In this document: piece by piece, positions 21,100 through 37,685 of the stretch
Position numbering within the stretch: position 1 is the stretch's first letter
How the letters are laid out: each line of letters opens with the position of its first letter
Source of the DNA: Paraglaciecola sp.
GTDB taxonomy: Bacteria > Pseudomonadota > Gammaproteobacteria > Enterobacterales > Alteromonadaceae
Length of the DNA: 37,942 bases
Assembly: GCF_030730205.1 (NCBI RefSeq)
Contig: NZ_JANQVQ010000226.1
Coordinates: 1-37,942, forward strand
Direction of reading: 5' to 3'
The notes under the pieces: model-generated
The model's input: the letters and a program-made list of their open reading frames with translations, nothing else
Database searches by the model: none
What the model was told of the DNA's origin: nothing
Made by a program: the position numbers and the translations under genes

Positions 21100-24000
21100 A
21101 TGAACTCAAATAATAAATTTAATAAAACGCTACTTGCCAAAAGCATCAGTTTAATGCTCGGTGCGTCAGTGATGACGCCTCTTTTGGCACAAGAAGCGCC
21201 CATCTCTGATGATACAGAGGTAATTCAAGTACGTGGATTACGCTCAAGTATGCAAGAATCAATGAGCGTTAAGCGTGAATCAGCTGGGGTAGTTGATGCT
21301 ATTTCAGCAGAAGATATCGGTAAATTCCCTGATACTAACCTTGCAGAATCTTTACAACGTATAACGGGTGTTTCAATCAGCCGTGAAAATGGCGAAGGCT
21401 CACAAGTCACGGTGCGCGGTTTTGGTGCTGACAAAAACATGATTACCCTCAATGGTCGTACAATGCCAGCGGCCAGTGCTTTTGCTGGCAACCAAGGGAC
21501 GTCAAGGGCCTTTGATTTTGCCAACTTAGCCTCTGAAAGTATTCGCGCAGTTGAAGTATACAAAACCAGTAAGGCTAACATTGCCACAGGTGGTATAGGT
21601 GCAACGATCAACGTCATTACCGCCAAACCCCTCTCTCAAGGTGAAGGCTTTAAAGCAAGTATTGGGGCAAAAGCAGTCAGTGACACGACTAACCGCACTG
21701 GCTCAGACATTACCCCTGAAATATCTGGTATCATCAGTTATGCCAATGACGATGCGACGTGGGGCGTTGGCCTGACGGTTAGCCATCAAGAACGTGACAG
21801 TGGCTCCACCGCGTTTTTAGAAAACGACTGGCGTGTGAGTGAATGGATTCCTATTGGACAGCCTGGCGCTATTGCATTAACGGATACCGCTACGGTAACC
21901 AATGCGCCTGCTGCAGGTCAGTTATTTGCGATGCCAAATAATGCTTCATACAACATTATTGATACTCAACGGGTGCGTGACAACGCTCAACTGACGCTGC
22001 AATTTGCGCCTAGCGAAGACTTTACTGCTACTGTTGACTACACCTACGCCAAAAACAATATTGCAAACACTGTCAATTCTAAAAACATGTGGTTCAACAG
22101 GACCTCTGACAAGGTTGTTTTTGACACTGACCAGTCGGTTGCTACGGCTATTCTAATTTCTGAAGATGTCAGTGGTATCAAAACTGATGCCAACGGTGAA
22201 CCAGTACTCGACGCCAATGGCAACCCAGTGCGCATCGGTACGAAAGATAACAACAGCGATGCTCAAATCAACGAGCAAACCAACACCCTAAAATCTTTGG
22301 GTATTAATCTTGAGTATCATGTTAACGATAGCTTCAAATTAGTATTGGATGCCCACGACTCGTCTATGGAGAGTAATCCTGACGCGGCTTTCGGTGGTAG
22401 TAGCTTACAAATGGCGACCGCAACCCCAATTGGTTTCTATCAAACACTCGATTTTAGCACCAAATTGCCTGGCATTGATTTGATTATCAATGACTCTGAA
22501 AAAGGAAACAATAACGGTGTTGCTGATGTTGGCGATGTGGGTAGCCAAGTTATGCGCAGCTATTACTCCTCGCAAGCAAATGATATTACCCAGATCAAAC
22601 TAGACGGCAGCATTGAGTTTGATGAAGGTCGTTTTGACTTTGGTGTCGAAACTCGCTCCTCTGAGATGAACCAGCACTGGTCTGAAAACTACATGGCCTT
22701 AGGTGATTGGGGCGTCAGTAATCCGCGTGATGTACCAGACGGATTGCTTGAAGAATTTAATATCATGGCCGAGTTCGAAGATTATGACACTTCTGGCTCT
22801 GATCAATTCGGCTGGCGTGCAAAAACAGCGGGCGATATCTATGCTTTAGCTGATTGGGCTGCACAAGAATACGGTCACGATTACAGCTACAACCCTAATT
22901 TCAGTGAGAACCACAAAGTTGAAGAAGACACCAGTGCCATTTATGTACAGGTCGCGCTGCAATCTGAACTCGGTGGCATGCCAGTGAACTTTTTAGCCGG
23001 TGTGCGCTATGAAACCACTGATTCTAAATCCACTTCGTTTGTTTTGGTTCCAACCGCCATCAACTGGTTGGATAACAACGACTTTAACACCACTCGTTCT
23101 ACCGAAGCGACAGCTTTAGCGGCGAAAAACAGTTATGATCATCTTCTTCCTAGTTTAGATTTTGATATTACGCTAACTGACGAATTAAAAGCCCGTGCGT
23201 CATTTAGCCAAACTATTGCTCGCGCTAATTACGACCAGCTTAGAACAGCGGTAACAGGCCTTGGTACGAATGGACCCACGTTAACCGGTGGTTCACCCAC
23301 AGGGAATGCCTCTAACCCACTGTTGGTACCTTTGCACTCTAGTAACTTCGACCTCTCGGCTGAGTATTACTTTGATGATACTAGCTACGTATCTATAGGT
23401 TTTTACGATAAGCGAGTTAAAAACTTTATTGGCACAGAGCAAGTAGACGAAAATCACTTTGATTTACGCGATGTCACTAATGGTCCTCGTGCCTTAGCAG
23501 CCAGAGACGCTTTAGTTGAAGGCGGTTACGCTGTTGACGAAACATCTCTTTTTGTTATGACGGTTATTATTGATAACCCAGATGCTTTCCCGGGTGGCGC
23601 AGCTGACTATGTACCTGGCATTTCTTTTGGTGAGCAAATCGCAGCTGATTACGATGTCATTCCTAACTCTACTGATCCACAGACCTTGTTCTTAACCAGC
23701 AAACCGGTGAACAATAAAGACGCAAATATTTATGGTTTTGAAATTGCAGGCCAACATTTCTTTGGTGATACAGGGTTTGGTTTAGCGGCTAACTACACCA
23801 CCGTAAATGGGGATATTGGTTTTGACGTGACGGGTAGCCCAAGTGTGTCACAGTTTGCGTTAACCGGTTTAAGTGATACCGCCAACGTCGTATTGATGTA
23901 TGAAAAAGATGGTATCCAAGCACGTTTAGCTTATAACTGGCGTGATGAGTACCTCGCTGAAACATCACGTGGTAGTTCAAGAAACCCACGTTTTGTTGAG

Positions 24001-24180
24001 GCCTATTCACAAATTGACTTCAACGTAAGCTACGAAGTAAGCGAGCAGTTAACGGTATCATTCGAAGGTTTGAACTTAACGGGTGAAGACAGCCGCAGCC
24101 ATGCACGTTCAGAGCGTCAAATCTGGGATTTGTATGATTTAGGCGCGCGTTATCAAGTTGGTGCCCGTTACACCTTTTAA
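21100..24180 (+). CDS. TonB-dependent receptor, first paralogue
   Basis: Outer-membrane active transporter of 1026 aa, of the TonB-Xanth-Caul type often tied to carbohydrate uptake. The signal peptide covers residues 1-30, with cleavage after LLA. TEVIQVRG (39-46) serves as TonB-box-like segment. The plug domain includes ISAEDIGKFPDTNLAESLQR and the VTVRGFGADKNMITLNGR segment, followed by a 22-strand-type barrel ending in GARYTF with the terminal Phe needed for insertion. There is no N-terminal STN domain, so no direct anti-sigma signalling is expected. Two operators and a promoter lie upstream and a strong terminator directly downstream. Compared with the paralogue at 28704 it carries extra residues around 350-385, including a DANGxPV duplication. 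A cello-oligosaccharide substrate is inferred only from the locus. Confidence 0.93.
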   Translation: MNSNNKFNKTLLAKSISLMLGASVMTPLLAQEAPISDDTEVIQVRGLRSSMQESMSVKRESAGVVDAISAEDIGKFPDTNLAESLQRITGVSISRENGEGSQVTVRGFGADKNMITLNGRTMPAASAFAGNQGTSRAFDFANLASESIRAVEVYKTSKANIATGGIGATINVITAKPLSQGEGFKASIGAKAVSDTTNRTGSDITPEISGIISYANDDATWGVGLTVSHQERDSGSTAFLENDWRVSEWIPIGQPGAIALTDTATVTNAPAAGQLFAMPNNASYNIIDTQRVRDNAQLTLQFAPSEDFTATVDYTYAKNNIANTVNSKNMWFNRTSDKVVFDTDQSVATAILISEDVSGIKTDANGEPVLDANGNPVRIGTKDNNSDAQINEQTNTLKSLGINLEYHVNDSFKLVLDAHDSSMESNPDAAFGGSSLQMATATPIGFYQTLDFSTKLPGIDLIINDSEKGNNNGVADVGDVGSQVMRSYYSSQANDITQIKLDGSIEFDEGRFDFGVETRSSEMNQHWSENYMALGDWGVSNPRDVPDGLLEEFNIMAEFEDYDTSGSDQFGWRAKTAGDIYALADWAAQEYGHDYSYNPNFSENHKVEEDTSAIYVQVALQSELGGMPVNFLAGVRYETTDSKSTSFVLVPTAINWLDNNDFNTTRSTEATALAAKNSYDHLLPSLDFDITLTDELKARASFSQTIARANYDQLRTAVTGLGTNGPTLTGGSPTGNASNPLLVPLHSSNFDLSAEYYFDDTSYVSIGFYDKRVKNFIGTEQVDENHFDLRDVTNGPRALAARDALVEGGYAVDETSLFVMTVIIDNPDAFPGGAADYVPGISFGEQIAADYDVIPNSTDPQTLFLTSKPVNNKDANIYGFEIAGQHFFGDTGFGLAANYTTVNGDIGFDVTGSPSVSQFALTGLSDTANVVLMYEKDGIQARLAYNWRDEYLAETSRGSSRNPRFVEAYSQIDFNVSYEVSEQLTVSFEGLNLTGEDSRSHARSERQIWDLYDLGARYQVGARYTF
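22186..22233 (+). repeat. Imperfect tandem repeat, 2 x 24 bp, in the receptor gene
   Basis: Two consecutive 24-bp units (22186-22209 and 22210-22233) encode DANGEPVL then DANGNPVR, in frame, at about residues 363-378. The second receptor lacks this stretch and goes directly from VGGTKD to HNSD, so it is an insertion/expansion in a predicted extracellular loop. Confidence 0.8.
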
Positions 24181-24225: not shown

Positions 24226-24251
24226 AAGCCGCTGACGTCAGCGGCTTTTTT
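24226..24251 (+). terminator. Strong rho-independent terminator after the first receptor gene
   Basis: A fully palindromic GC-rich stem (AAGCCGCTG at 24226-24234 with CAGCGGCTT at 24239-24247, loop ACGT), with the T-run at 24246-24251, 45 bp after the receptor stop. It separates the abundant receptor transcript from the sapC-like gene that follows. Confidence 0.92.
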
Positions 24252-24337
24252 ATCCGTTTTAATTTAAGCTTCTCTGTGCTTGAAGTGCTAAAAATGCATA
24301 ACAGCGAGCAAAAAATAGTTAAGGAATGATAACAACC

Positions 24338-25063
24338 ATGGCGCAACATGTACTACTTGATAACGTGAGCCATCACGACTTAAAAGTCAGCCCATTATTT
24401 AAAGCAGAATTTGGCGATAATGTGAACACTGCGCTGACGTTCTCGACAGAATTAGAAGCCATGCAACGAGTTTATCCCTTATTTTTTAGAAAAGATCCGG
24501 CCACTCATCGCTTTCAATTGGTTGCCATGCTCGGGTTTAATAAAGATGAAAATTTATTTTTGAACTCAGCAAATCATACTTGGCAGGCTGAAGTTATCCC
24601 GGCGGTGATGGCCAAGGGGCCCTTTTTGATTGGCTTTCAAGATCAATCTAATCGAGGTGGATCAGATCAAGCACCAGTGGTACACGTTGATATGCAAAGC
24701 CCCAAAATTGACAAAGAAGCGGGGATCCCGGTATTTCTTGAGCACGGTGGTAACAGCCCTTACCTAGAGCACATTAATTCCTTACTGCTGACGATTTACC
24801 ATGGCATGACAGAGACTGAGAATATGCTTACGGCCTTTACTGAAATGGATTTGATTGAGCCTGTTGAGCTAGACATAACCCTCAATAACGGTGAACAGCA
24901 TAAACTGCATGGTAATTATACGATTAGCACAGAAAAATTGGCTGCATTGAGTGGCGAGCAATTGCAGGCTTTAAACCAAAGTTCCTATCTCAAGGCCGCT
25001 TTTTTTATTGCGAGCTCACTTAACAATGTTAAAAAATTGATAGCCATCAAAAATAATAAATGA
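24338..25063 (+). CDS. SapC-like protein
   Basis: A 241-aa protein of the SapC family (named after a Campylobacter fetus S-layer locus gene). The pattern fits in FxxELxxxxxxYPLFFRK near residues 30-50, LVAMLGFNKDENLFLN at about 60-75, and GPFLIGFQD. It has no signal peptide or membrane helix, so it is probably cytosolic. The biochemical role of the family is unknown. ATG at 24338 was chosen because the upstream ATG at 24326 directly abuts the AAGGA sequence, while this one is twelve bases away; the spacing is long, so the start is not firm. It is the first gene of a four-gene run with cupin, halogenase and DUF6445 proteins. The terminator just upstream means the run needs its own promoter or read-through. 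Confidence 0.82.
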   Translation: MAQHVLLDNVSHHDLKVSPLFKAEFGDNVNTALTFSTELEAMQRVYPLFFRKDPATHRFQLVAMLGFNKDENLFLNSANHTWQAEVIPAVMAKGPFLIGFQDQSNRGGSDQAPVVHVDMQSPKIDKEAGIPVFLEHGGNSPYLEHINSLLLTIYHGMTETENMLTAFTEMDLIEPVELDITLNNGEQHKLHGNYTISTEKLAALSGEQLQALNQSSYLKAAFFIASSLNNVKKLIAIKNNK

Positions 25064-25107
25064 ATTTAACCTTAAGTTTTGCACACTATTATTTGTAATC
25101 GAGACCA

Positions 25108-26151
25108 ATGAACACTATCACACGAATGACCCCAGTTATTGATGCCCACGATGTCAACCAGATAAAGGCTGAACTCACCTGTCGAACTGAACCTGTTATT
25201 TTAAAAGGGTTAGTCACACACTGGCCTTTAGTGAAAAAAGGCCTTGAGTCTGATGAGACCGTAATAGCGTATTTGAAATCCCATTACAATGGCAAACCTA
25301 CGGGGGTTTATGTGGGCGAGCCAGAGATTAACGGCCGCTTTGCCTATGATGAATCGGTAACTCAGTTAAATTTTTCTAATAAGAAATCTCAACTCGATGA
25401 GATGTTAGACGCCATTTTAATGAATAAAACACAAGATAAGCCCACTTCATTATACGTGGCTTCTAAGCGCATTGATTGGCATTTTCCTAGCTTAAAAGCA
25501 GAAAACACCCTCGACTTTCATGAAGACGCGTTTTTATCTTTAAGTGCAAAAGACGCTGATTTAATCGCTAGTATCTGGATTGGTAATAAAACCTTAGTTT
25601 CCTGCCATTTTGATGCACAAAGTAACATTGCGTGTTGCGTGGCCGGAAAACGCCGCTTCACCTTATTTCCACCTGAGCAAATTAATAACTTGTACCCTGG
25701 CCCACTTGAGCCCACACCCGGTGGCCAAGTGATCAGCATGGTGGATTTTAACCGGCCCGATTTTGACAAATACCCGCGGTTTGCCGAGGCCATCGAAGTG
25801 GGCCAAATTGCCGAGCTTGAACCTGGCGACGCCCTATTTCTACCAAGTATGTGGTGGCATCAAGTCGAAGCACTCAGCACCTTTAACGTGCTCGTTAATT
25901 ATTGGTGGAATACCAGCCCCATTTACCGCGGACAAGCCAACGATGCACTTACCCATGCACTACTGAGTATTAGAGATTGCCCTGCCCATGAAAAAAAGGC
26001 TTGGAAAGCAATTTTTGATTATTACATTTTTGCCGATGCCAATCATGCAGCCAGTCATTTGCCCGAAGCTGCCCAAGGCGTGTTGGGTAAGATTGAGCCA
26101 TTAACAGCCCGGCGTTTAAGAGCACAACTGCTTAACCAGTTAAATCGATAA
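25108..26151 (+). CDS. Cupin-like (Cupin_8/JmjC-type) putative 2-oxoglutarate/Fe(II) oxygenase
   Basis: A 347-aa protein with the N-terminal EPVILKGLVTHWP segment typical of Cupin_8/JmjC hydroxylases and a facial triad: His167 and Asp169 in SCHFDAQSN, and His251 in MWWHQVEAL. The core beta-barrel spans about 150-270 and includes GKRRFTLFPP and ELEPGDALFLPSMWW. The family includes asparaginyl/histidyl hydroxylases (FIH-like) acting on proteins, so a protein or peptide substrate is plausible but not shown. There is no signal peptide, so it is cytosolic. It sits 44 bp after the SapC-like gene and 23 bp before the halogenase gene, and very likely belongs to one operon. Confidence 0.88.
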   Translation: MNTITRMTPVIDAHDVNQIKAELTCRTEPVILKGLVTHWPLVKKGLESDETVIAYLKSHYNGKPTGVYVGEPEINGRFAYDESVTQLNFSNKKSQLDEMLDAILMNKTQDKPTSLYVASKRIDWHFPSLKAENTLDFHEDAFLSLSAKDADLIASIWIGNKTLVSCHFDAQSNIACCVAGKRRFTLFPPEQINNLYPGPLEPTPGGQVISMVDFNRPDFDKYPRFAEAIEVGQIAELEPGDALFLPSMWWHQVEALSTFNVLVNYWWNTSPIYRGQANDALTHALLSIRDCPAHEKKAWKAIFDYYIFADANHAASHLPEAAQGVLGKIEPLTARRLRAQLLNQLNR

Positions 26152-26174
26152 GCAAAATATTTCAGGAGTTAAGC

Positions 26175-27665
26175 TTGAATCAAGCACAAAAAAAACGAGT
26201 GATTATTGCAGGAGGCGGCACCGCAGGTTGGATTGCCGCTGCTGCTATGGCAAAACAGCTTGCCGGCACTGTAGACATTACCTTGATTGAGTCTGATCAA
26301 ATTAGCACGATAGGCGTGGGCGAAGCCACGATCCCGCCAATGCGCACATTCCATAAGTTATTAGGTATTAACGAACAAGACTTTATGCGCGCAACCTCCT
26401 CGACATTCAAATTAGGGATCTCATTTGAAAACTGGGGGAATATCGACCAGAAATATATCCATTCATTTGGGGTAACCGGCAAAAGCAGTTATTTAGCTGA
26501 ATTCGTGCATTTTTGGCTGCATGGTAAACAACAGGGTCACGATGCAGAGTACGGTGATTATTGTATTGAATTGCAAGCAGCTAAAATGGGCCGTTTTGCG
26601 ACCTCCGACAAATCAAAAATTAATTTTGCCTACCATCTTGAGGCCAGTCGTTATGCCTCGTTTTTAAGAGAATTTAGCGAAGCACGCCAAGTTAAACGAG
26701 TTGAAGGTAAAATAGTCCAAGTCAATCAAGCGACTAACGGCAGTGGATTTATCACCGGCTTGCAATTAGATAGTGGCGCCTTGATCGAAGGAGATCTATT
26801 TATTGACTGCAGCGGTTTTAGAGGCCTGTTAATTGAACAAACCCTCAACACGGGTTATGAAGATTGGTCACACTGGTTACCGTGCGACAGTGCGTTGGCC
26901 GTCCAAACAGCTTCTGTTAGTCCCGCGCCGCCCTATACCAGAGCCATCGCCCATGACAGTGGATGGCAATGGCGTATACCACTGCAACATCGCGTGGGTA
27001 ATGGCATTGTTTATTGTAGCAAGTATCTATCTGATGATGCTGCACGCCTGCGCCTACTTGACAATATTGAAGGACAAACCTTAACAGAGCCTTTGCAAAT
27101 AAAATTTAGAACCGGAAAGCGCCGCAAACATTGGAACAAAAACTGTATTGCTTTAGGGCTTGCCAGTGGATTTGTCGAGCCTCTTGAGTCTACTTCAATT
27201 CATTTAGTTATGATGGGCATCATACGCTTGATGAAATTATTTCCATATGAAGGCATCAACCCTGTCCTAGTGGAAGAATACAATCGAGAAACCAGTGAAG
27301 AGTTAGAGAAAATTCGCGACTTTATTATTTTGCATTACAAAGTCACTCAGCGAGAAGACAGTGCATTTTGGCGTTATTGCAAAAACATGGAAGTACCTGA
27401 CTCACTTAAACATCGTATTGAGCTGTTTAAGCGTAATGCTTACACCTACCAAGAACCCAACGAATTATTCAGAGTCGACTCTTGGACTCAAGTGATGTTA
27501 GGCCAAGGACTTATTCCTGACTCTTATCACCATATTGTAAAAACCATGTCTGATAACGAGCTCAATCAATTTTTGAACTCTATGCGTACCGGCATGAAAA
27601 GCGTTGCTGAATCATTGCCTATGCATCAGGACTTTATTGAACGCTATTGCAAAGCGAGCAACTAA
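26175..27665 (+). CDS. Flavin-dependent tryptophan-halogenase-family protein
   Basis: A 496-aa FAD protein. The dinucleotide motif GGGTAGW lies at 13-19, GVGEATIPP at 47-55, catalytic Lys79 in STFKLGISFENW (same number as in PrnA), the halogenase signature GWQWRIP with Trp264 and Trp266, and Glu338 in FVEPLESTS, which aligns with the PrnA active-site Glu. All key residues for hypohalous-acid chemistry are thus present. The start is TTG at 26175 with CAGGAG six bases upstream, a strong site. There is no signal peptide. Family members linked to TonB receptor genes (BrvH-like) brominate indole in vitro, but their natural substrate is unknown. A flavin reductase would be required, and none is encoded here. 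Confidence 0.92.
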   Translation: MNQAQKKRVIIAGGGTAGWIAAAAMAKQLAGTVDITLIESDQISTIGVGEATIPPMRTFHKLLGINEQDFMRATSSTFKLGISFENWGNIDQKYIHSFGVTGKSSYLAEFVHFWLHGKQQGHDAEYGDYCIELQAAKMGRFATSDKSKINFAYHLEASRYASFLREFSEARQVKRVEGKIVQVNQATNGSGFITGLQLDSGALIEGDLFIDCSGFRGLLIEQTLNTGYEDWSHWLPCDSALAVQTASVSPAPPYTRAIAHDSGWQWRIPLQHRVGNGIVYCSKYLSDDAARLRLLDNIEGQTLTEPLQIKFRTGKRRKHWNKNCIALGLASGFVEPLESTSIHLVMMGIIRLMKLFPYEGINPVLVEEYNRETSEELEKIRDFIILHYKVTQREDSAFWRYCKNMEVPDSLKHRIELFKRNAYTYQEPNELFRVDSWTQVMLGQGLIPDSYHHIVKTMSDNELNQFLNSMRTGMKSVAESLPMHQDFIERYCKASN

Positions 27666-27668
27666 GTG

Positions 27669-28373
27669 ATGCAACAACTTACACCGAGCGACAATATGAT
27701 CATCACCAAACATACTATTGGTGATGAGGCCTTACCATTATTGGTAGTAGACAATTTTATAGCTGAGCCTGAGGCCTTGATTCAGGAGGCGGGTTTTCGG
27801 GACTTTAGCCAAAACTCGCCCTATTATCCAGGCCACAGAGCCGAAGCTCCCCTCGCCTATCAACAGTGCTTACTTGCTTGTTTGACACCCACATTGGTGG
27901 ATGTTTTTCAACTACCCAGTGAGATACTTAGTTTGTCGGTTTGTCATTATTCGGTTGTTACCACCCCGCCCACTCAACTTAAGTTGTTACAACGTATTCC
28001 TCACTTTGATTCTCTGAATAAACACGGTCTTGCCGCCGTACATTATTTATTTCATGGCGAGCAAGGCGGTACATCTTTTTATCGTCATCGTAAAACAGGC
28101 TTTGAAAGCATCGATGAGAGCAGAAAAACAGCCTATTTTAGCTCCTTAGAAAATGAGAACGATGGCCCCAACATGCCAAAAATGAAAGACGGTTATATTA
28201 ATGGTGACACCCCTCTTTTTACGTGCATTGAGCAACAACGCGGAATCTATAATCGAATAATTGTATATCGTCGAAACACCTTACACTCTGGTGCTATTCC
28301 TAGCGATTTTAAGCCGCCGCTTAATTTACTCGATGGCAGATTAACGATCAGTAGCTTTATCGATTGTATTTGA
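27669..28373 (+). CDS. DUF6445-family protein
   Basis: A 234-aa cytosolic protein that follows the halogenase stop by 3 bp, so it is surely cotranscribed and probably coupled. The pattern fits DUF6445: LPLLVVDNFIAEPEALI near the N-terminus, YPGHRAEAP, RIPHFDSLN (a His-x-Asp pair), HYLFHGEQGGTSFYRHR, and a late RRNTLHSGAIP. The HFD...LHSG spacing followed by an Arg recalls 2-oxoglutarate/Fe(II) oxygenases of the prolyl-hydroxylase type, which would make it the third oxygen-using enzyme of the cluster. That reading is inference. The start is ATG 27669; a GTG immediately before it is the alternative. Confidence 0.8.
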   Translation: MQQLTPSDNMIITKHTIGDEALPLLVVDNFIAEPEALIQEAGFRDFSQNSPYYPGHRAEAPLAYQQCLLACLTPTLVDVFQLPSEILSLSVCHYSVVTTPPTQLKLLQRIPHFDSLNKHGLAAVHYLFHGEQGGTSFYRHRKTGFESIDESRKTAYFSSLENENDGPNMPKMKDGYINGDTPLFTCIEQQRGIYNRIIVYRRNTLHSGAIPSDFKPPLNLLDGRLTISSFIDCI

Positions 28374-28703: not shown

Positions 28704-31700
28704 ATGAAAAAACCAAACCGTTTTAGCAAATCATTGCTTACGCAAAGCATCGCATTATTACTTGGTACAGGGACTGTTATGCCTGCCTTGGCACAAGAAG
28801 TAAGCACAGAAGATACCGAAGTAATCCAAGTCCGTGGTATGCGTTCAAGTATGCAAGAATCAATGTTTACCAAACGCGAGTCTTCGGGTGTGGTCGATGC
28901 CATTTCCGCCGAGGACATTGGTAAATTTCCTGACACAAACCTTGCAGAATCTCTACAACGTATTACTGGTGTGTCTATCAGCCGCAGCAATGGTGAAGGA
29001 TCACAAGTTACTGTCAGAGGTTTCGGCGCAGACAAAAACATGATCACCCTAAATGGCCGAATGATGCCAGCGGCGAGTGCCTTCGGTGATGGCGATGGTG
29101 GTTTTCAAGGAACAGGCCGTGCATTCGATTTTGCCAATTTAGCCTCAGAAAGTGTTCGCGCTGTTGAAGTGTATAAAACCAGTAAAGCCAATATTGCCAC
29201 TGGCGGCATTGGCGCCACCATCAATATTTTAACGGCAAAACCCCTAGACAAAGAAGGCTTTCAAGCCAGTGTTGGTGGCAAAGGGATTGTTGATACTACT
29301 AACCGCACGGGCAACGATGTCACGCCCGAGGTATCCGGTATATTCAGCTTCACCAATGATGAATCCACTTGGGGTGTGGGCTTGACAGTAAGTCACCAAC
29401 AACGTGATAGCGGTTCAACGGGTTTACTCATGAACGACTGGCGTGTGAGCCCTTGGATCCCATTAGGAGAGGAAGGTGCTATCGCCATGAGTGATACGGG
29501 TACAGTGACAAATGCACCAGCTGAAGGTCAATTGTTTGGCATGCCCAATAACGTCTCTTATAACACTTGGGACACCCAGCGTACTCGCGACAATGCTCAG
29601 TTGACCCTGCAATGGGCACCTAGCGATAACATCACAGCCACGGTAGATTACACCTATGCTAAAAACGATATAACCCAAGAAAAACACTCTAAAAATTCAT
29701 GGTTTACCCGCACCACTGACAATGTCACCTTCGACACAAACCAAGCGGTAGCGACCGCGGTGGTAATATCAGAGGCAGTAGGGGGCACGAAAGATCACAA
29801 CAGCGATGCGACCCTTTACAAACAGTCAAATGAGCTAAAGTCGTTGGGTATTAATCTCGAATATCAAGCAACAGATAACCTGTCTTTTAGCTTAGATGCA
29901 CATGACTCTTCAATGGAAAGTTTACCTGATGGCGGCAAATGGGGGGGGACCTTAACCGTTGCGACAGCAACGCCGATTGGTTTGTACAACACCTACAATT
30001 TTGAGGGCGACTTACCCATTTTAACCCAAGTAAACAATGACAGTATCAAGGGTAATGGCAATGGTGTAGATGATGTTGGTGACATTGGGAGTCAAATAAT
30101 GCGCTCTTTTTGGAACTCACAAACCACTGATATCAAACAATTTAAATTAGACGGAAGTCTAGAGTTTGATGATGGTCGCTTTGATTTTGGTGTCGAAACC
30201 AGAACCATGGAAACCAATCAAAAGTATTCAGAAAACTATATGCCCTTAGGCGATTGGGGCGTGTCTAACCCGATGGATGTACCTGAAGGTTTATTGCAGC
30301 CCTACAACATCATGGCAGAATTTGATGACTATGATACATCGGGTTCAAACCAATTTGGCTGGACCTCGAATGTGGTTGAGCTTGCTGATTGGGCCGCGCA
30401 GGAATACGGTCATGATTATAGCTATAACCCTAACTTTAGTGAAAACCATCGGGTAAAAGAAGATACTACCGCCCTTTATTTGCAAGTGTCTTTAAAAGGT
30501 GAACTTGGTGATATGCCAACTAATTTTTTAGCAGGTGTTCGCTATGAAACAACCGATGTTGACTCTACCTCGTTCTCATTACAAGTCAGTCAAATAGAGT
30601 GGTTAGACAACAACGATTATTTCTATCGCTTGTCTGATAATATTACAGCCATCAAAGGCGGTACTTCTTACGATCATTTGTTACCGAGTTTAGATTTTGA
30701 TATTTCAATCACTGATGAATTAAAAGCCAGAGCTTCTTTTAGTCAAACCATTGCAAGAGCTAACTATGATCAGCTCAGAACAGCCGTAACCGGTATCAGC
30801 ACTAATGGGCCTGCCTCGACCGGTGGCTCTGCAGTCGCTACGGCTTCTAATCCTGCTCTCGTGCCTTTGCAATCAAGTAACTTTGATTTATCAGTTGAAT
30901 ACTATTTTGCTGATACCAGCTATGTATCACTGGGCTTTTACGAAAAACGGGTTAAAAACTTTATTGGTACCGAGCAAGTTGAAGAGCCTCATTTTGGTTT
31001 AAGAGATGTAACCGCAGGCCCTCGAGCCCAAGCAGCAGCGGCTGCACTTGAAGCAGCAGGTTATGCAGTAGATGAAACCTCTTTATTTGTAATGACCGTG
31101 ATCATCGATAACCCGCAAGATTTTCCAGGTGGAATTGCTGACTATGAGCCAGGCATTACCTTCGGTGAGCAAATAGCTGCTGATTACGACGTCGTCCCCA
31201 ATGCAGATGATCCAGAAATGGTGTTTTTAACCAGTAAGCCAGTAAACAACAAAGAAGCACAAATTTACGGTTTTGAGTTAGCCGCTCAACACTTCTTTGC
31301 CGACACAGGTTTTGGCATCGCAGCCAACTACACTACCGTCAACGGTGATATCGGTTTTGACGATACAGGCAGCCCAGCAGTATCACAATTTGCTTTAACG
31401 GGCTTAAGTGACACTGCTAACATCGTACTGATGTATGAAAATGACAATATTCAAACTCGCCTTGCTTACAACTGGCGTGATGAATATTTGGCAGAAACCT
31501 CTCGTGGAGGCTCAAGAAACCCCCGTTACGTTGAGGCTTACGCTCAGCTAGATTTTACAATTAGTTATCAAGTTAACGAGCAGCTTTCGGTGTCATTTGA
31601 AGGTCTGAACTTAAGCGAAGAAAACAGTCGAAGTCATGGCCGTTCAGAACGTCAAGTATGGGATTTATATGATTTAGGCGCCCGTTATCAATTAGGTGCA

Positions 31701-31715
31701 CGTTACACCTTCTAA
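28704..31715 (+). CDS. TonB-dependent receptor, second paralogue
   Basis: Outer-membrane receptor of 1003 aa, close paralogue of the one at 21100 along its full length. Signal peptide 1-30 (MPALA then Q), TonB-box-like EVIQVRG, a plug with FPDTNLAESLQR, and a barrel ending in GARYTF. The plug and the C-terminal 300 residues are almost the same as in the first copy, while surface-loop regions differ (for example FGDGDGGFQGTGRAF against FAGNQGTSRAF, and the lack of the DANGxPV insert). Codons for identical stretches differ at many third positions, so the duplication is not recent. Downstream is a strong terminator. No clear operator lies upstream, so its control may differ from the first copy. 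Confidence 0.93.
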   Translation: MKKPNRFSKSLLTQSIALLLGTGTVMPALAQEVSTEDTEVIQVRGMRSSMQESMFTKRESSGVVDAISAEDIGKFPDTNLAESLQRITGVSISRSNGEGSQVTVRGFGADKNMITLNGRMMPAASAFGDGDGGFQGTGRAFDFANLASESVRAVEVYKTSKANIATGGIGATINILTAKPLDKEGFQASVGGKGIVDTTNRTGNDVTPEVSGIFSFTNDESTWGVGLTVSHQQRDSGSTGLLMNDWRVSPWIPLGEEGAIAMSDTGTVTNAPAEGQLFGMPNNVSYNTWDTQRTRDNAQLTLQWAPSDNITATVDYTYAKNDITQEKHSKNSWFTRTTDNVTFDTNQAVATAVVISEAVGGTKDHNSDATLYKQSNELKSLGINLEYQATDNLSFSLDAHDSSMESLPDGGKWGGTLTVATATPIGLYNTYNFEGDLPILTQVNNDSIKGNGNGVDDVGDIGSQIMRSFWNSQTTDIKQFKLDGSLEFDDGRFDFGVETRTMETNQKYSENYMPLGDWGVSNPMDVPEGLLQPYNIMAEFDDYDTSGSNQFGWTSNVVELADWAAQEYGHDYSYNPNFSENHRVKEDTTALYLQVSLKGELGDMPTNFLAGVRYETTDVDSTSFSLQVSQIEWLDNNDYFYRLSDNITAIKGGTSYDHLLPSLDFDISITDELKARASFSQTIARANYDQLRTAVTGISTNGPASTGGSAVATASNPALVPLQSSNFDLSVEYYFADTSYVSLGFYEKRVKNFIGTEQVEEPHFGLRDVTAGPRAQAAAAALEAAGYAVDETSLFVMTVIIDNPQDFPGGIADYEPGITFGEQIAADYDVVPNADDPEMVFLTSKPVNNKEAQIYGFELAAQHFFADTGFGIAANYTTVNGDIGFDDTGSPAVSQFALTGLSDTANIVLMYENDNIQTRLAYNWRDEYLAETSRGGSRNPRYVEAYAQLDFTISYQVNEQLSVSFEGLNLSEENSRSHGRSERQVWDLYDLGARYQLGARYTF

Positions 31716-31738
31716 CTATCCTCGTTACTTTTAGCTTG

Positions 31739-31767
31739 AAGGTCGCAGTGTTACTGCGACCTTTTTT
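31739..31767 (+). terminator. Rho-independent terminator after the second receptor gene
   Basis: A perfect 11-bp stem (AAGGTCGCAGT at 31739-31749 with ACTGCGACCTT at 31753-31763, loop GTT) followed by a T-run through 31767, 24 bp after the receptor stop. Confidence 0.93.
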
Positions 31768-32286: not shown

Positions 32287-34155
32287 ATGAAGATAGCCTT
32301 AGTTGACCTTATTATTATTGTGGCTTATTTAGCGGCAATTATAGGCATTGGTTTTTATTTAAAAAAACGTGCAGCCCAAAGTATGGACGACTATTTTGTC
32401 GGCGGTAAAAAGCTGCCGTGGTACTTGTTGGGTTTGTCTAATGCCTCAGGCATGTTCGATATCTCAGGCACAATGTGGTTGGTGACCTTGTGTTTTGTGT
32501 ACGGCATGAAGAGTATATGGATCCCTTGGTTATGGCCGGTTTTTAACCAAGTATTTCTGGCCGTCTATCTTTCGATGTGGTTACGTCGGTCTAACGTTCT
32601 GACTGGCGCGGAATGGATGCGAACGCGCTTTGGTGATGGCCGCAGTGGCAAATTATCTCACATGGTGGTGATTGCCTTTGCGGTAATTGGTGCACTTGGC
32701 TTTCTAGCCTATGGTTTCGTCGGTATTGGTAAATTCATTGAAATTTTTATTCCGTGGGAAAACGTCTCACCCTACCTCCCCTTTACGATTTCAGCGGCCT
32801 ATGTACCCCATTTCTATGGCATCGTTTTTACGTCTATCGCCACGCTATACGTCATTTTAGGTGGCATGATGAGCATAGTATGGGCCGACGTTTTGCAGTT
32901 TTCCATCATGACCTTCTCTGCCTTGTTTATTGGTGTGGTTGCCATGATACAAGTGTCACCAGAAACCCTTCAAGCAGCCGTACCCGCTGGCTGGATGGAT
33001 CCCTTCTTTGGTTGGAACTTAAATTTAGATTGGCAAGGCATTTTCGCAGAAGTAAATGACAAAATTCTGTCTGACGGTTTCTCGCTCTTTAGTATTTTTG
33101 TGATGATGACCTTATTTAACGGTATTTTTAAAAGTGCCGCAGGTCCAATGCCTAACTACGATATGCAAAAAATCCTTGCCACTAAATCCCCCCGTGAAGG
33201 CGCACTAATGAGCGGTTTTGTGTCGATTATTTTGATGCCGATCCGCTACTTTATGATTGCAGGTTTTACGGTTTTGGCAGTGGTTTACTACCAAAAACTA
33301 GATTTGATGTCAGGTGGGCAATTAGACTTCGAAAACATTTTACCGAGTGCGATTTTAGAATTTGCCCCTGTAGGTATTATGGGCTTAGTTTTAGCCGGCC
33401 TAATCGCCGCTTTTATGTCTACTTTTGCATCAACTGTTAACGCGGTACCTGCTTATTTAGTCAACGATGTTTACAAGCGTTACATTAACCCTAAAGCCAA
33501 TACCAAAACGTTGATTCATACCAGTTACCTTGTGTCGATTCTAGTAGTGGTACTCAGCACCGTGATTGGTCTGTATATCGAAAGCATCAATAGTATATTG
33601 CAACTTTTAGTGTCTGGTCTTTGGGCTGGTTATGCTATTGCGAATGTTCTGAAGTGGCATTGGTGGCGGTTAAATGGCTATGGCTATTTTACTAGCATGC
33701 TGGCCGGTTTAGTGTGCTTTATTGTGATTGCTTTTATTCCCGACTCTGCCTTTAGTGTCCCACGAGAAATGGTTGCGCTATATGCCTTCCCACTGATCCT
33801 GCTGATAACTGGCGCCGTCTGTATTGGGGTCAGTTTACTGACCCCGCCAGAGGATGAAGCCTTATTAAAACGCTTTTATAAAAACGTAAACCCTTGGGGA
33901 TTTTGGGGGCCCATTCGTCTAGCAGTTAAGTTAGACGATCCTAACTTTGCCGCAAACGGGGATTTTAAGCGAGACATGTTCAATATCGTCATAGGGGTAG
34001 TCGCGCAAACGTGTTTGGTTGCCTTACCTATTTTTGCGGTGATTAAAGAAGGCTGGTCAAGCCTATGGACACTCAGCATATTCATCATTTGTGCTTGGAT
34101 ATTAAAACGCAATTGGTACGACAAGCTTCCACAAGAGACTACAAATAATGCTTAA
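32287..34155 (+). CDS. Sodium:solute symporter (SSS family), probable cellobiose/glucoside importer
   Basis: Inner-membrane Na+-coupled transporter of 622 aa with about 13-14 hydrophobic helices, starting with a short external N-terminus and IALVDLIIIVAYLAAIIGIG. MDDYFVGGKKLPWYLLGLS (32-50) is the typical SSS block after helix 1, and the GLIAAFMSTFASTVNAVPAYLVNDVYKRY region near residues 375-405 is the conserved helix-8/9 segment containing the second sodium site. GGAAAG five bases before the ATG is a strong ribosome-binding site. The gene overlaps the GH94 phosphorylase gene by 8 bp, so import of the phosphorylase substrate (cellobiose or a related glucoside) is the natural inference. Expression is predicted to be controlled by the operator at 32112. 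Confidence 0.92.
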   Translation: MKIALVDLIIIVAYLAAIIGIGFYLKKRAAQSMDDYFVGGKKLPWYLLGLSNASGMFDISGTMWLVTLCFVYGMKSIWIPWLWPVFNQVFLAVYLSMWLRRSNVLTGAEWMRTRFGDGRSGKLSHMVVIAFAVIGALGFLAYGFVGIGKFIEIFIPWENVSPYLPFTISAAYVPHFYGIVFTSIATLYVILGGMMSIVWADVLQFSIMTFSALFIGVVAMIQVSPETLQAAVPAGWMDPFFGWNLNLDWQGIFAEVNDKILSDGFSLFSIFVMMTLFNGIFKSAAGPMPNYDMQKILATKSPREGALMSGFVSIILMPIRYFMIAGFTVLAVVYYQKLDLMSGGQLDFENILPSAILEFAPVGIMGLVLAGLIAAFMSTFASTVNAVPAYLVNDVYKRYINPKANTKTLIHTSYLVSILVVVLSTVIGLYIESINSILQLLVSGLWAGYAIANVLKWHWWRLNGYGYFTSMLAGLVCFIVIAFIPDSAFSVPREMVALYAFPLILLITGAVCIGVSLLTPPEDEALLKRFYKNVNPWGFWGPIRLAVKLDDPNFAANGDFKRDMFNIVIGVVAQTCLVALPIFAVIKEGWSSLWTLSIFIICAWILKRNWYDKLPQETTNNA

Positions 34156-36619
34156 TCAAGATAAAAGTAACGAACAACACTTTGGCTATTTCGATGATCA
34201 ACATCTCGAATATGTGATAACCAGTCCATTTACCCCCACACCTTGGATCAACTACCTTGGCAATGATGGTTTTTATGGCTTGATATCAAATACTGCCGGT
34301 GGTTACTGCTTTTATCGAGACCCTAAGTTTCGTCGCCTAACCCGTTATCGTTATAACAGTGTGCCGATAGACAACGGTGGACGTTATTTTTATATTAATT
34401 GTGATGGACAGCAATGGTCGGTCTCTGGCCGCCCCATGCATACAGAGCTTGATGAATATCGCTGTCATCACGGCATGGGATACAGCCGTTTTTACGCACG
34501 TAAAAATGACATTGCTACTGAGTTGACCACGTTTATCCCCCTTAATACCAAAGCTGAAGTCCACAGTTTGACCCTTACGAATCAAAGTGATAGCGGCAAA
34601 AATATCGACTTGTTTTCTTTTATCGAATGGTGTTTATGGAATGCCGAAGACGACGGAACTAATTTTCAACGTAATCTGTCAACCGGTGAAGTGGAAGTTG
34701 AAGGCAGTACGATTTATCACAAAACTGAATACCGTGAACGCAGAGATCATTATGCCTTTTATTCGGTCAATCAGCCGATTGCAGGCTTTGAGACTGATCG
34801 AGAAACGTTTTTAGGGCCCTATCGCGGCTTTGAACGCCCAATAGCTGTCGAAAAGGCCGAGATGCAAAACTCCATCGCAAGAGGTTGGTCACCCATTGCC
34901 TCACACCATATAAAGTGTGAACTTGCGGCAGGGGAAAGTAAAACGCTGATTTTTGTTTTAGGCTATTGTGAGGTCGAGTCGGCGCATAAATGGCAAGCGC
35001 CAAATATCATTAACAAAGCACCTGCACAGCAATTACAACAACAATTTGATAGTCCAGAAAAAGTCGCCAGTGAATTAAAAAAACTGGCCGATTATTGGCA
35101 CACACTACTCAATAAAATGACGGTCAATTCACCAGATGAACGCTTTAATCGCTCGTTAAATATTTGGAACCAGTACCAAAACATGGTGACGTTTAACTTG
35201 TCACGCAGCGCGTCTTTTTATGAGTCTGGCATTGGTCGAGGCATGGGCTTTAGGGATTCAAATCAAGACACTATAGGCTTTGCACACATGGTACCTGAAA
35301 AGGTCAAAGAACGTATTTTAGATTTATCTGCCACGCAAAAAGCAGATGGCTCTGCCTACCACCAGTACCAACCCTTAACCAAAAAAGGTAATGCCAATAT
35401 CGGCGGTAACTTTAACGATGATCCGATGTGGATGGTGCTATCAACGGCTAATTATATTAAGGAAACTGGCGACTTTAGTATTCTGGATGAATTAGTAATT
35501 TATGACGGCCAAGCCCTTGCCACCCATAACCATTTTGATCATCTAGAACGCGCTTTTAATCATGTGATCAACAATCTGGGCCCGCACGGATTACCACTTA
35601 TCGGTCGTGCAGATTGGAATGACTGCCTTAATCTCAATTGTTTTTCCGAAGATCCTAATGAGTCTTTCCAAACCACTCAGCGCGGCGCGTCAGATGTGGC
35701 AGAATCTGTGATGATTGCTGGCCAATTTGTGCTTTATGGCCAAGAGTTTGTTAATTTGTGTCAGCGCATCGGTAAAGACGAACTGGCAGCCAAGTGCTTA
35801 GGCCATGTTGAGAAAATGCGTCTTAGCGTTGAGCAATATGGTTGGGATGGTCAATGGTATCTGCGTGCCTATGATGCGCTGGGTAATAAAATTGGCAGTC
35901 ACGAATGCACTGAGGGCAAAATATTTATTGAGTCACAAGGCTTTTGTGCCATGGCAGGTATCGGCCTAGCGCAAGGTAAACCGCTTCAGGCTATGCAAGC
36001 AGTCGAACAACATCTGGTTACCGATTATGGCATCATGCTAAACCAACCCGCGTTTAGTCGTTACAGCAAATATTTGGGTGAAATCAGCTCTTATCCGCCC
36101 GGTTATAAAGAAAACGCCGGTATTTTTTGCCATAACAATCCTTGGATCACGATTGCTGAGGCCATGTTAGGTCGAGGTGAAAAAGCTTATGAATATTTCA
36201 GCAAAATAACTCCCGCTTATTTGCAAGACGTGCAAAACCTGCACAAGACTGAGCCTTATGTATATAGCCAAATGATTGCAGGTAAAGATTCAGCCCACCC
36301 TGGTGAGGCAAAAAACTCGTGGTTAACCGGAACTGCAGCGTGGAACTACTACGCCGCCACACAATATATTCTGGGCATCAGGCCCGATTACGATGGATTA
36401 TTGATTGACCCGTGCATATTACCTACATGGAAAACCGTATCGATAAGCCGTGAGTTTCGCGGTGCACACTATCAAATTGAGCTGCGTAATCCGCTAGGGC
36501 TGAGTAAAGGCCATATAAAGCTGACGATTGATGATCATGCTATCGAGGGCAATTTAGTTGATTTTAAACGGTATCCCAACCGTCATCACATTATCGCTGA
36601 ACTCACATCACTTGCTTGA
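34148..36619 (+). CDS. GH94 cellobiose phosphorylase
   Basis: Cytosolic inverting phosphorylase: cellobiose plus phosphate gives alpha-glucose-1-phosphate and glucose, saving one ATP. The protein has 823 aa, the size of cellobiose phosphorylases and shorter than cellodextrin or laminaribiose enzymes. The N-terminal beta-sandwich (about 10-290) includes PWINYLGNDGFYGLIS, FRRLTRYRYNSVP and HKTEYRERRDHYA. The (alpha/alpha)6 catalytic barrel carries GIGRGMGFRDSNQD (361-374), GSAYHQYQPLTKKG, and GRADWNDCLN (486-495) with the general-acid Asp. PPGYKENAGIFCHNNPW and EAKNSWLTGTAAWN follow. These blocks match the Cellvibrio/Cellulomonas gilvus enzyme as I recall it, which supports cellobiose over chitobiose. 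The start overlaps the symporter stop by 8 bp, implying translational coupling. Confidence 0.95.
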   Translation: MLNQDKSNEQHFGYFDDQHLEYVITSPFTPTPWINYLGNDGFYGLISNTAGGYCFYRDPKFRRLTRYRYNSVPIDNGGRYFYINCDGQQWSVSGRPMHTELDEYRCHHGMGYSRFYARKNDIATELTTFIPLNTKAEVHSLTLTNQSDSGKNIDLFSFIEWCLWNAEDDGTNFQRNLSTGEVEVEGSTIYHKTEYRERRDHYAFYSVNQPIAGFETDRETFLGPYRGFERPIAVEKAEMQNSIARGWSPIASHHIKCELAAGESKTLIFVLGYCEVESAHKWQAPNIINKAPAQQLQQQFDSPEKVASELKKLADYWHTLLNKMTVNSPDERFNRSLNIWNQYQNMVTFNLSRSASFYESGIGRGMGFRDSNQDTIGFAHMVPEKVKERILDLSATQKADGSAYHQYQPLTKKGNANIGGNFNDDPMWMVLSTANYIKETGDFSILDELVIYDGQALATHNHFDHLERAFNHVINNLGPHGLPLIGRADWNDCLNLNCFSEDPNESFQTTQRGASDVAESVMIAGQFVLYGQEFVNLCQRIGKDELAAKCLGHVEKMRLSVEQYGWDGQWYLRAYDALGNKIGSHECTEGKIFIESQGFCAMAGIGLAQGKPLQAMQAVEQHLVTDYGIMLNQPAFSRYSKYLGEISSYPPGYKENAGIFCHNNPWITIAEAMLGRGEKAYEYFSKITPAYLQDVQNLHKTEPYVYSQMIAGKDSAHPGEAKNSWLTGTAAWNYYAATQYILGIRPDYDGLLIDPCILPTWKTVSISREFRGAHYQIELRNPLGLSKGHIKLTIDDHAIEGNLVDFKRYPNRHHIIAELTSLA

Positions 36620-36665: not shown

Positions 36666-37685
36666 TTAAGGACGAGGTGCGGGCCCTGTACTGGCTCTCA
36701 CCTTAAGTTCAAAAGGCAAAAACTGTTTACCCGGCTTGACTTTATTACCGCGCAACTGCTCTAACAATAAATTGATACACGTCGTGCCTATTTCCTTTAA
36801 TGGTTGGTGCACCGTGGTCAGCGCCGGCGTGACAAACTCAGCATAATGAATGTCGTCAAAGCCCATCACTGAGATATCTTCTGGGATCATAAAGCCTTGT
36901 TTTTTTAATAACTTCATTACCCCAATTGCCATCTCATCATTGAAGCAAAAGATCGCGGTAGGACGTTGACGTAGTAACAATAATTGCTCCGCACTACTCA
37001 CCCCAGATACAACCGTATAATCACCCCGAATTTGCAGGTTACTATCCACCTCAATTCCAGCGTTTTGTAATGCAAGGATATAACCTTCTAAACGTTCATT
37101 TGAACTTGGTACATCTATAGGGCCAGTTATTGCCGCAATCCGTTGATGACCTTGCGAGATTAGGTAATTAACCGCTGCACTAGCCGCCGCAACGTTATCG
37201 ACTGCAACTTGCACAATTTCATCGTTATTCATGCTTTCGTTCGCGTTGACCATAGGCGGAATCTGCTCAAGCAAAGGCAAATTTGGATCAATCTTAAATG
37301 GCATGCGAGAACCAAAAAGCAAAATTCCGTCGGCTTGTCCAGAGCTCACGAGGTCAGCGTAGTGGCGTTCACGCTCGATCAAACCTTGGGTATCACCGAG
37401 CAAAATAGAATAACCAGCACTTTGTGCGCCCTGCTCGATAGCCCGTATAATCCCAGCATTCACAGGATTAGTAATATCAGGAATAATTGCCACAATATTG
37501 CCGCTTTTACGGGTTCGCAAACTGGCACCAATGCGATTAGGTCGATAGCCCATTTCATCTACTATCTTTTTAACCTTATTCAAGGTTTTTTTTGATACGA
37601 GCTCTGGCGAGCTAAGTACCCTAGAAACGGTTGCGGGAGAGACTTTTGCAAGGGCTGCAATATCTTTAATACCTACAGTTGCCAC
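36666..37685 (-). CDS. LacI/GalR-family transcriptional repressor, probable cellobiose-locus regulator
   Basis: A 339-aa repressor. The N-terminal helix-turn-helix VGIKDIAALAKVSPATVSRVL (4-24) and the hinge region MGYRPNRIGASLRTRKSG are typical of the family. A periplasmic-binding-protein-like sugar domain follows, with VAIIPDITNPVNAGIIRAIE, DGILLFGSR, AITGP and SVMGFDDIHYAEFVTPALTTVHQP. The start is a GTG at 37685 with only a weak ribosome-binding site, but no other start fits the family N-terminus. It converges on the GH94 gene. LacI-type palindromes occur upstream of its own gene, the symporter operon and the first receptor, so it is the best candidate to bind them and to be released by cellobiose or a derivative. 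It resembles CelR/CebR-type regulators in context, not proven by sequence. Confidence 0.92.
   Translation of the reverse strand: MATVGIKDIAALAKVSPATVSRVLSSPELVSKKTLNKVKKIVDEMGYRPNRIGASLRTRKSGNIVAIIPDITNPVNAGIIRAIEQGAQSAGYSILLGDTQGLIERERHYADLVSSGQADGILLFGSRMPFKIDPNLPLLEQIPPMVNANESMNNDEIVQVAVDNVAAASAAVNYLISQGHQRIAAITGPIDVPSSNERLEGYILALQNAGIEVDSNLQIRGDYTVVSGVSSAEQLLLLRQRPTAIFCFNDEMAIGVMKLLKKQGFMIPEDISVMGFDDIHYAEFVTPALTTVHQPLKEIGTTCINLLLEQLRGNKVKPGKQFLPFELKVRASTGPAPRP

Follow-up and report, generated by a model that had tools for sequence, protein, structure and literature searches.

A SapC, cupin, halogenase and DUF6445 module linked to TonB-dependent receptors in a cellobiose locus of Paraglaciecola

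The 37,942-nucleotide stretch of Paraglaciecola sp. DNA analysed here (the window; contig NZ_JANQVQ010000226.1 of RefSeq assembly GCF_030730205.1) carries, between two TonB-dependent receptor genes, four adjacent genes for a SapC-family protein, a Cupin_8 protein, a flavin-dependent halogenase and a DUF6445 protein. Conservation of the operon, co-diversification with the receptor, intact active sites, the DUF6445 fold and a halogenase–DUF6445 fusion identify this module as a conserved, receptor-linked, oxygen-dependent unit. Sequence and fold establish the unit, its tie to the receptor, the intactness of its active sites and DUF6445 as a further oxygen-using enzyme, and sequence comparison makes it very probable that the genes form a functional unit tied to the receptor. 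The preferred, though tentative, explanation overall is that they are a copy of an accessory operon of TIGR01782-type TonB receptors for beta-glucans or beta-glucosides, with the receptor precursor as the favoured substrate. The module and its flanking receptors are as follows.

21100–24180, + strand: TonB-dependent receptor 1, TIGR01782 type (664.8 bits; N-terminus signal-peptide-like when read by eye)
24326–25063, + strand: SapC-family protein, PF07277 (Pfam 209.7 bits; alternative start at 24338)
25108–26151, + strand: Cupin_8 protein, FIH/JMJD5-like Fe(II)/2-oxoglutarate (2OG) hydroxylase with H167, D169 and H251 (Pfam 250.3 bits)
26175–27665, + strand: flavin-dependent halogenase of the BrvH/Xcc4156 type (B-type below), TTG start (Trp_halogenase 638.9 bits)
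27666–28373, + strand: DUF6445 protein, 2OG-Fe(II) oxygenase by predicted fold, with H113, D115, H207 and R225 (GTG start, or ATG at 27669; Pfam 238.4 bits)
28704–31715, + strand: TonB-dependent receptor 2, TIGR01782 type (664.4 bits; 74% identity to receptor 1 over the aligned parts)

All four Pfam scores lie far above the cut-offs, and both receptors pass the curated TIGR01782 cut-off of 310 bits. The original prediction, made from the window sequence alone, described four same-strand neighbours without signal peptides, and this layout holds: all are on the + strand with gaps of 44, 23 and 0 or 3 bp (depending on the DUF6445 start), and no hydrophobic signal is visible by eye at the four N-termini. 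Its SapC start requires correction, since position 24338 is the second in-frame ATG of an open reading frame (ORF) that begins at 24326. The active-site features that it had named are all present, namely K79, W264xW266xI268P and E335-P-L-E338 in the halogenase, the HxD...H triad of the cupin, and the HFD motif and late His and Arg of DUF6445 at the residues given above.

The halogenase combines a flavin adenine dinucleotide (FAD)-binding motif, GGGTAGW (GxGxxG), with K79, W264QW266RIP and E338, which identifies it as a PF04820 flavin-dependent halogenase. Its three best PDB matches are 6y1w (Xcc4156; 611.8 bits), 9luq (named only 'Tryptophan halogenase'; 559.5 bits) and 6frl (BrvH; 437.3 bits). 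The motifs ATIPPM and HSFGV conform to the group C pattern in a table of PMC8269204, and the motifs tabulated there for the free-tryptophan halogenases of groups A and B (e.g. ATFSTV and HPFER) are not present, which speaks against assignment to those groups. Lys79, Trp264, Trp266 and Glu338 are kept in all 132 halogenase ORFs of at least 400 aa, and 191 members of a wider set of 199 homologues retain the catalytic Lys and Glu, the eight exceptions being two short ORFs (390 and 382 aa) gapped at one site and six members of a separate degenerate group. The widespread loss of active-site residues that would have spoken against the original prediction is thus not seen. Six receptor loci contain, close to intact halogenases, a degenerate homologue without the catalytic Lys and Glu (L206:7886–9346, L210:9041–10528, L212:7481–9214, L213:7994–9481, L218:10535–12031 and L220:7644–9281); this third halogenase gene is a candidate for a non-catalytic partner.

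Conservation of the operon was followed in a scan limited to a single genome for each species, with a query alignment built from five halogenases of the genome that carries the window. At least 590 loci were confirmed, and the 80 best were kept, so that the set is biased towards close relatives; it includes loci cut by contig ends, and it was annotated with purpose-built profiles, with genes counted on the halogenase strand. A receptor is present in 67 of the 80 loci, Cupin in 61 and SapC in 60, and SapC, Cupin and halogenase are contiguous in 55. The order receptor–halogenase–SapC–Cupin–halogenase is found in 28 loci and receptor–SapC–Cupin–halogenase in 22, with DUF6445 immediately 3′ of the halogenase in 12. 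Median gaps are 2.5 bp (SapC–Cupin), 10 bp (Cupin–halogenase) and 15 bp (halogenase–DUF6445), and on one Comamonadaceae contig halogenase and DUF6445 are fused in a single ORF of 741 aa (L068, 9986–12211). The hosts, judged by record titles, are Alpha-, Beta- and Gammaproteobacteria, one being named only 'proteobacterium'. Two-halogenase loci carry two distinct paralogues. The copy that lies between receptor and SapC (A-type) has WxWxIG in 27 of 29 cases and the copy after the cupin mostly has WxWxIP, the latter being the only type in the window. The fullest form of the operon comprises receptor, optional A-type halogenase, SapC, Cupin_8, B-type halogenase and optional DUF6445.

In a less biased sample of 200 Proteobacteria (halogenase match at E ≤ 1e-30, up to seven candidates scored per genome), a window-like halogenase occurs in 16 genomes among the matches listed, the window's own genome included. 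The matches outside the latter form 40 neighbourhoods, of which 39 enter the counts; in the fortieth (G318) no receptor of the TIGR01782 module type was seen. A receptor is present in 34 of the 39 loci, and 55 of 64 halogenase ORFs longer than 350 aa have one within four genes on either strand. DUF6445 is found in eight loci and all four families in four, and each of the six loci with both SapC and Cupin has a receptor whose score on the profile of module receptors is 1100 bits or more (1239 and 1244 bits for the window receptors). A search of the same 200 genomes for receptors like receptor 2 (E ≤ 1e-60, up to four candidates scored per genome) found them in 11 genomes among the matches listed, all within the 16 halogenase genomes. 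The pairing that generally holds is that of halogenase and receptor; the larger gene set belongs mainly to one receptor lineage, outside which a halogenase next to a receptor has fewer partners. Co-occurrence is not random in either census, and the linkage foreseen by the original prediction is conserved, but not as a fixed set of four. Chance neighbourhood without joint function would accord with SapC, cupin, DUF6445 and A-type halogenase each being optional and with the occurrence of some family receptors without the module; it is contradicted by the conserved order, short gaps, linkage across classes, gene fusion and intact active sites, and is extremely improbable.

Receptor and halogenase have diversified together. 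Among 60 receptor–halogenase pairs (taxonomic classes assigned from record titles), the identities of the two proteins correlate with r = 0.84 across the full set (null 0.12) and r = 0.71 between classes (null −0.009, standard deviation 0.095), and none of 500 within-class shuffles reaches either value. In a 170-receptor tree, where 114 receptors have a halogenase nearby and 56 have none, halogenase presence requires 12 Fitch changes compared with a shuffled mean of 47 (minimum 39 in 300 shuffles). The correlation and the tree show joint inheritance and transfer; these alone do not tell the substrate.

The two remaining enzymes are similarly intact. The best PDB matches of the cupin are the protein hydroxylases FIH and JMJD5, and its H/D/H iron triad is kept in 68 of 68 cupins and in 12 of 12 further proteins, all of which have an Arg (R182 in the window) at the position of the 2OG-anchoring Lys of FIH. 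This Lys binds 2OG in FIH, and the Arg may do so in its place. DUF6445 is listed by Pfam as a family of unknown function, and a sequence search of the PDB gave no significant match (best E 0.19). Its predicted model (predicted local distance difference test score, pLDDT, 93.9) matches the 2OG-Fe(II) oxygenases HygX and SnoK in Foldseek (probability 1.00, best E 1.8e-5), with identities of 9–14% and TM-scores of about 0.3–0.5 in the rows shown. The H/D/H/R residues are kept in 15 of 15 and 19 of 19 proteins (partly the same) and in eight of eight in another count. On the strength of this predicted fold and the HxD..H..R pattern, DUF6445 is assigned to the 2OG-Fe(II) oxygenase superfamily.

The open halogenase site of relatives, the FIH-like cupin, the location of SapC near exported-protein genes and the lack of a precursor peptide argue for an exported polypeptide as substrate; that it is an exported protein, the receptor precursor in the first place, is a real but still tentative possibility. 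According to passages of PMC7336383, Xcc4156 has an open site, refuses free Trp and is without a known native substrate, its authors proposing larger substrates or peptides, and parts of PMC5945002 give the same picture for BrvH (open site, no free Trp, larger substrates or peptides possible). The open site also resembles that of MibH (PMC5945002, same parts), an enzyme that tailors a lanthipeptide, and would suit the tailoring of a ribosomally synthesized and post-translationally modified peptide whose gene lies elsewhere. No precursor gene was found to recur among 591 small ORFs in and around the operons, which formed no cross-locus cluster (short-peptide blastp, E 1e-3, of limited sensitivity), and peptide tailoring is accordingly quite improbable.

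The role of SapC has to be read from gene context. A sequence search of the PDB gave no match, and the SapC model (pLDDT 62.9, from a five-sequence alignment) matched no PDB structure at E ≤ 0.001. SapC is present in 104 of 299 Proteobacteria. From the matches listed, 40 SapC places were picked by hand, one per genome, four of them in the module and 36 outside. Tags of exported-protein type, chosen after viewing the neighbours (giant ORF, TpsB, HlyD-, M50- or SecA-like protein, outer-membrane efflux protein, other TonB receptor), occur within two genes of SapC in 16 of the 36 non-module loci, and tagged genes number 24 of 140 near and 14 of 311 far from SapC (p 2.7e-5, an optimistic value because the tags were picked post hoc). 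This context only suggests that SapC may act as an adaptor or presenter. On the module SapC profile the window protein scores 312 bits, SapC of full SapC–Cupin–halogenase operons 251–335 bits and non-module SapC 108–205 bits, with SapC of receptor–halogenase loci lacking the cupin (120–234 bits) overlapping the non-module range. The link of the window protein to SapC of Campylobacter, which has a role in S-layer export, is one of family name. Four loci (L155, L158, L161 and L162) have SapC in an unusual export-type cluster near giant ORFs and HlyD-, M50- and SecA-like proteins, the giant ORFs including one of 3234 aa in L158 and one of 3176 aa with RTX repeats in L162. Five others (L160, L163, L180, L183 and L193) have it near TpsB-type (ShlB/FhaC) proteins, several with a giant ORF, and L180 and L193 have an intervening IalB-family gene.

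If the receptor precursor is the substrate, the enzymes would act in the cytosol on one polypeptide bound for export, most likely the precursor encoded in the same operon. SapC would present the unfolded precursor, the halogenase, supplied with reduced FAD (FADH2) by a general flavin reductase, would brominate an aromatic side chain, and hydroxylation of side chains would fall to the cupin and DUF6445, all modifications preceding Sec export. The mark could tune or protect the receptor, for example against phage or bacteriocins. Taken as a whole, such a dedicated post-translational halogenation and hydroxylation of outer-membrane receptor precursors, with SapC delivering the unfolded receptor before export, is unlikely; if true, it would make the receptor precursor the missing native substrate of BrvH-type halogenases.

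The other features of the locus are as follows.

24226–24247, no strand assigned: GC-rich perfect hairpin followed by a T-rich stretch between receptor 1 and the module, terminator- or attenuator-like (consensus match only)
31738–31764, + strand: terminator-like hairpin 3′ of receptor 2 (consensus match only)
32287–34155, + strand: sodium:solute symporter (SSF)
34148–36619, + strand: glycoside hydrolase family 94 (GH94) protein, closest to cellobiose phosphorylases
36666–37685, − strand: LacI-family regulator

The GH94 protein scores 1153.6 bits against a PDB cellobiose phosphorylase compared with 437.7 bits against a chitobiose phosphorylase, which bears out the description of the region as a cellobiose locus. 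Among the 80 best halogenase loci, recurrent neighbour groups, each named from one representative, are GH3 (22), MFS_2 (13), GH16 with malectin (12), GH1 (11), MFS (9 and 5) and glucokinase (5). These genes point to the use of beta-glucans or beta-glucosides, in agreement with the GH94 gene of the window.

The module could instead serve regulation responsive to oxygen, halide or 2OG, with the cupin and its partners modifying a regulator or a receptor partner and thereby coupling receptor output to oxygen or carbon status. FIH, which the cupin resembles, senses oxygen, all of the module enzymes belong to families that need oxygen, and the hairpin between receptor 1 and the module would permit separate expression. 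Terminator-like sites in the whole region show no excess over shuffled sequence (11 compared with a mean of 11.3). Against this idea, no regulator keeps a constant position in the operon: genes of LacI type, present in many of the 80 loci, vary in position and are absent from many others. We also know of no precedent for halogenation as a regulatory mark. A regulatory role is improbable.

Several observations weigh against the receptor precursor as substrate. No receptor residue covaries with the module under phylogenetic control. The candidate of most interest was Trp537 of receptor 1 (W537), for which a first hint (Trp in linked receptors, Phe in two module-less relatives) gave way in a second alignment to Trp in both. 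Among 738 column/residue combinations in 134 receptors W537 ranked first (85 of 105 receptors near a B-type halogenase versus four of 29 without); in the set of 170 receptors, less two unclassified members, it dropped to ninth of 736, level with the eighth (86 of 105 versus 14 of 63), and outside the main receptor clade (34 versus 52 receptors) its p value was 0.055. Phylogenetically independent contrasts (n = 12) were concordant in two cases, discordant in one and silent in nine, and W537 is rejected as a halogenation site and treated as a clade marker. Since this test failed, a receptor site cannot be named from sequence alone. Many columns also differ between receptors of operons with one halogenase and those with two (33 versus 22); in this comparison without phylogenetic control they are read as clade differences. 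Of the original prediction, that the module carries out oxygen-dependent modification of a common receptor-tied substrate, the receptor-bound oxygen-dependent unit is upheld, but not the action of halogenation and hydroxylation on one shared substrate, nor the receptor as that substrate. Two fairly close receptors (38% identity; L234 and L235) have no module gene nearby, and a receptor of this type can therefore exist without the module. Only 11 of the 39 loci in the less biased sample have SapC, the same number have Cupin and six have both, so neither is essential to the halogenase–receptor pair. Moreover, the part given to SapC has behind it no usable model or PDB match, hand-picked loci and export tags chosen post hoc. 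Finally, a small molecule taken up by the cell could be the target of cytosolic enzymes whose genes neighbour that of a sugar phosphorylase, and the best fold matches of DUF6445 (HygX and SnoK) act on small molecules.

The last two points lead to the main alternative, in which halogenation and hydroxylation tailor a small indole- or phenol-type molecule. This could be an aglycone released from a beta-glucoside after import, or a brominated metabolite produced in the presence of the glycan (a signal, ligand or weapon). In vitro, both Xcc4156 and BrvH accept indole and its derivatives (passages of PMC7336383 and PMC7313196), the closest folds of DUF6445 are small-molecule tailoring oxygenases, and cytosolic beta-glucoside metabolism is encoded in the locus by GH94, with GH1, GH3 and glucokinase recurring near relatives. 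Nevertheless, natural-product or aglycone-degrading enzymes are not recurrent among the ten commonest types of neighbour group scanned in the 80 loci (one representative each), and the tight co-diversification with the receptor and the presence of SapC are left unexplained. Small-molecule tailoring is a live possibility, still on the doubtful side.

The genome that carries the window encodes nine halogenases, seven of which adjoin a TIGR01782-type receptor. An eighth (contig C291) adjoins an ORF that is receptor-like but of a different type, and the last (C69) is encoded on a contig of 4.7 kb with no receptor on it. Receptor 1 scores 1239 bits on the module-linked receptor profile compared with 262–584 bits for receptors of the same genome without a module gene. 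On contig C18 a stretch 3′ of a halogenase (L009:8327–8461) matches only the last 45 positions of the DUF6445 profile and is probably a decayed copy. The module is reduced on contig C304 (L016:9257–10727), where SapC and DUF6445 lie close to a receptor gene of the opposite strand, with neither halogenase nor cupin in the stretch examined, and a 262-aa protein without a Pfam match (L012:3412–4200) is encoded between a receptor-like ORF and a halogenase of this genome.

Parts of the gene set are plasmid-borne. DUF6445 is found in five plasmid records, three of which were inspected: a mobilizable plasmid of Sphingomonas sanguinis carries receptor–DUF6445–halogenase, a Catenovulum megaplasmid carries DUF6445, halogenase, receptor and GH3, and pASTEX01 of Asticcacaulis excentricus carries DUF6445 and a receptor in a glycan locus, with no halogenase within the stretch viewed. 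A phage collection holds 78 records with a halogenase match at E ≤ 1e-5; the names of 67 contain Synechococcus, Cyanophage or Prochlorococcus, and those of two Pelagibacter. Among the ten matches listed, two unannotated faecal records have identities of 45–52% and the rest 28–31%. For phage and Colwellia halogenases, a passage of a metatranscriptome paper (PMC11337851) guesses, without data, at a role in virus–host receptor interactions.

All four protein families were already known by name, and no description of the four-gene operon as a system was found in an open-access library; the system is a glycan utilization locus with an oxidative modification module. With proteobacterial polysaccharide utilization loci that contain TIGR01782 receptors it has in common the receptor, glycoside hydrolases, symporter and LacI regulator, whereas an oxidative or halogenating module inside such a locus was not found in print. 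The cupin shares HxD...H with FIH and JMJD5 and aligns with FIH residues 181–289, including the FPP-x-Q-x-x-x-LYP stretch, but has the invariant R182 in place of the 2OG-binding Lys of FIH. DUF6445 resembles HygX, SnoK/SnoN and prolyl hydroxylases in fold and in HxD..H..R, but the low identities and TM-scores mark a distant match; the data place the family among the 2OG-Fe(II) oxygenases by fold.

The closest comparison is with the group C halogenases BrvH and Xcc4156, the native substrates of which are unknown (as stated in part of PMC7336383) and which the present data tie to receptor operons. A second halogenase gene adjoins brvH, as in the two-halogenase operons (parts of PMC5945002), and BrvH-like tandem genes occur in Hyphomonadaceae of sponges (parts of PMC7313196). 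The original prediction took proximity of BrvH-type halogenases to TonB receptors as known; no such statement was found in print, but the link itself is present in these loci. Neither 'TonB' nor 'SapC' appears in the main text of the Xcc4156 paper (PMC7336383) or of the BrvH paper (PMC5945002), and that of the latter does not contain 'cupin' either. The window halogenase differs from these enzymes in its placement in a receptor operon with SapC, Cupin_8 and DUF6445, which suggests for the BrvH/Xcc4156 group both a growth condition (beta-glucan or cellobiose) and a set of partners.

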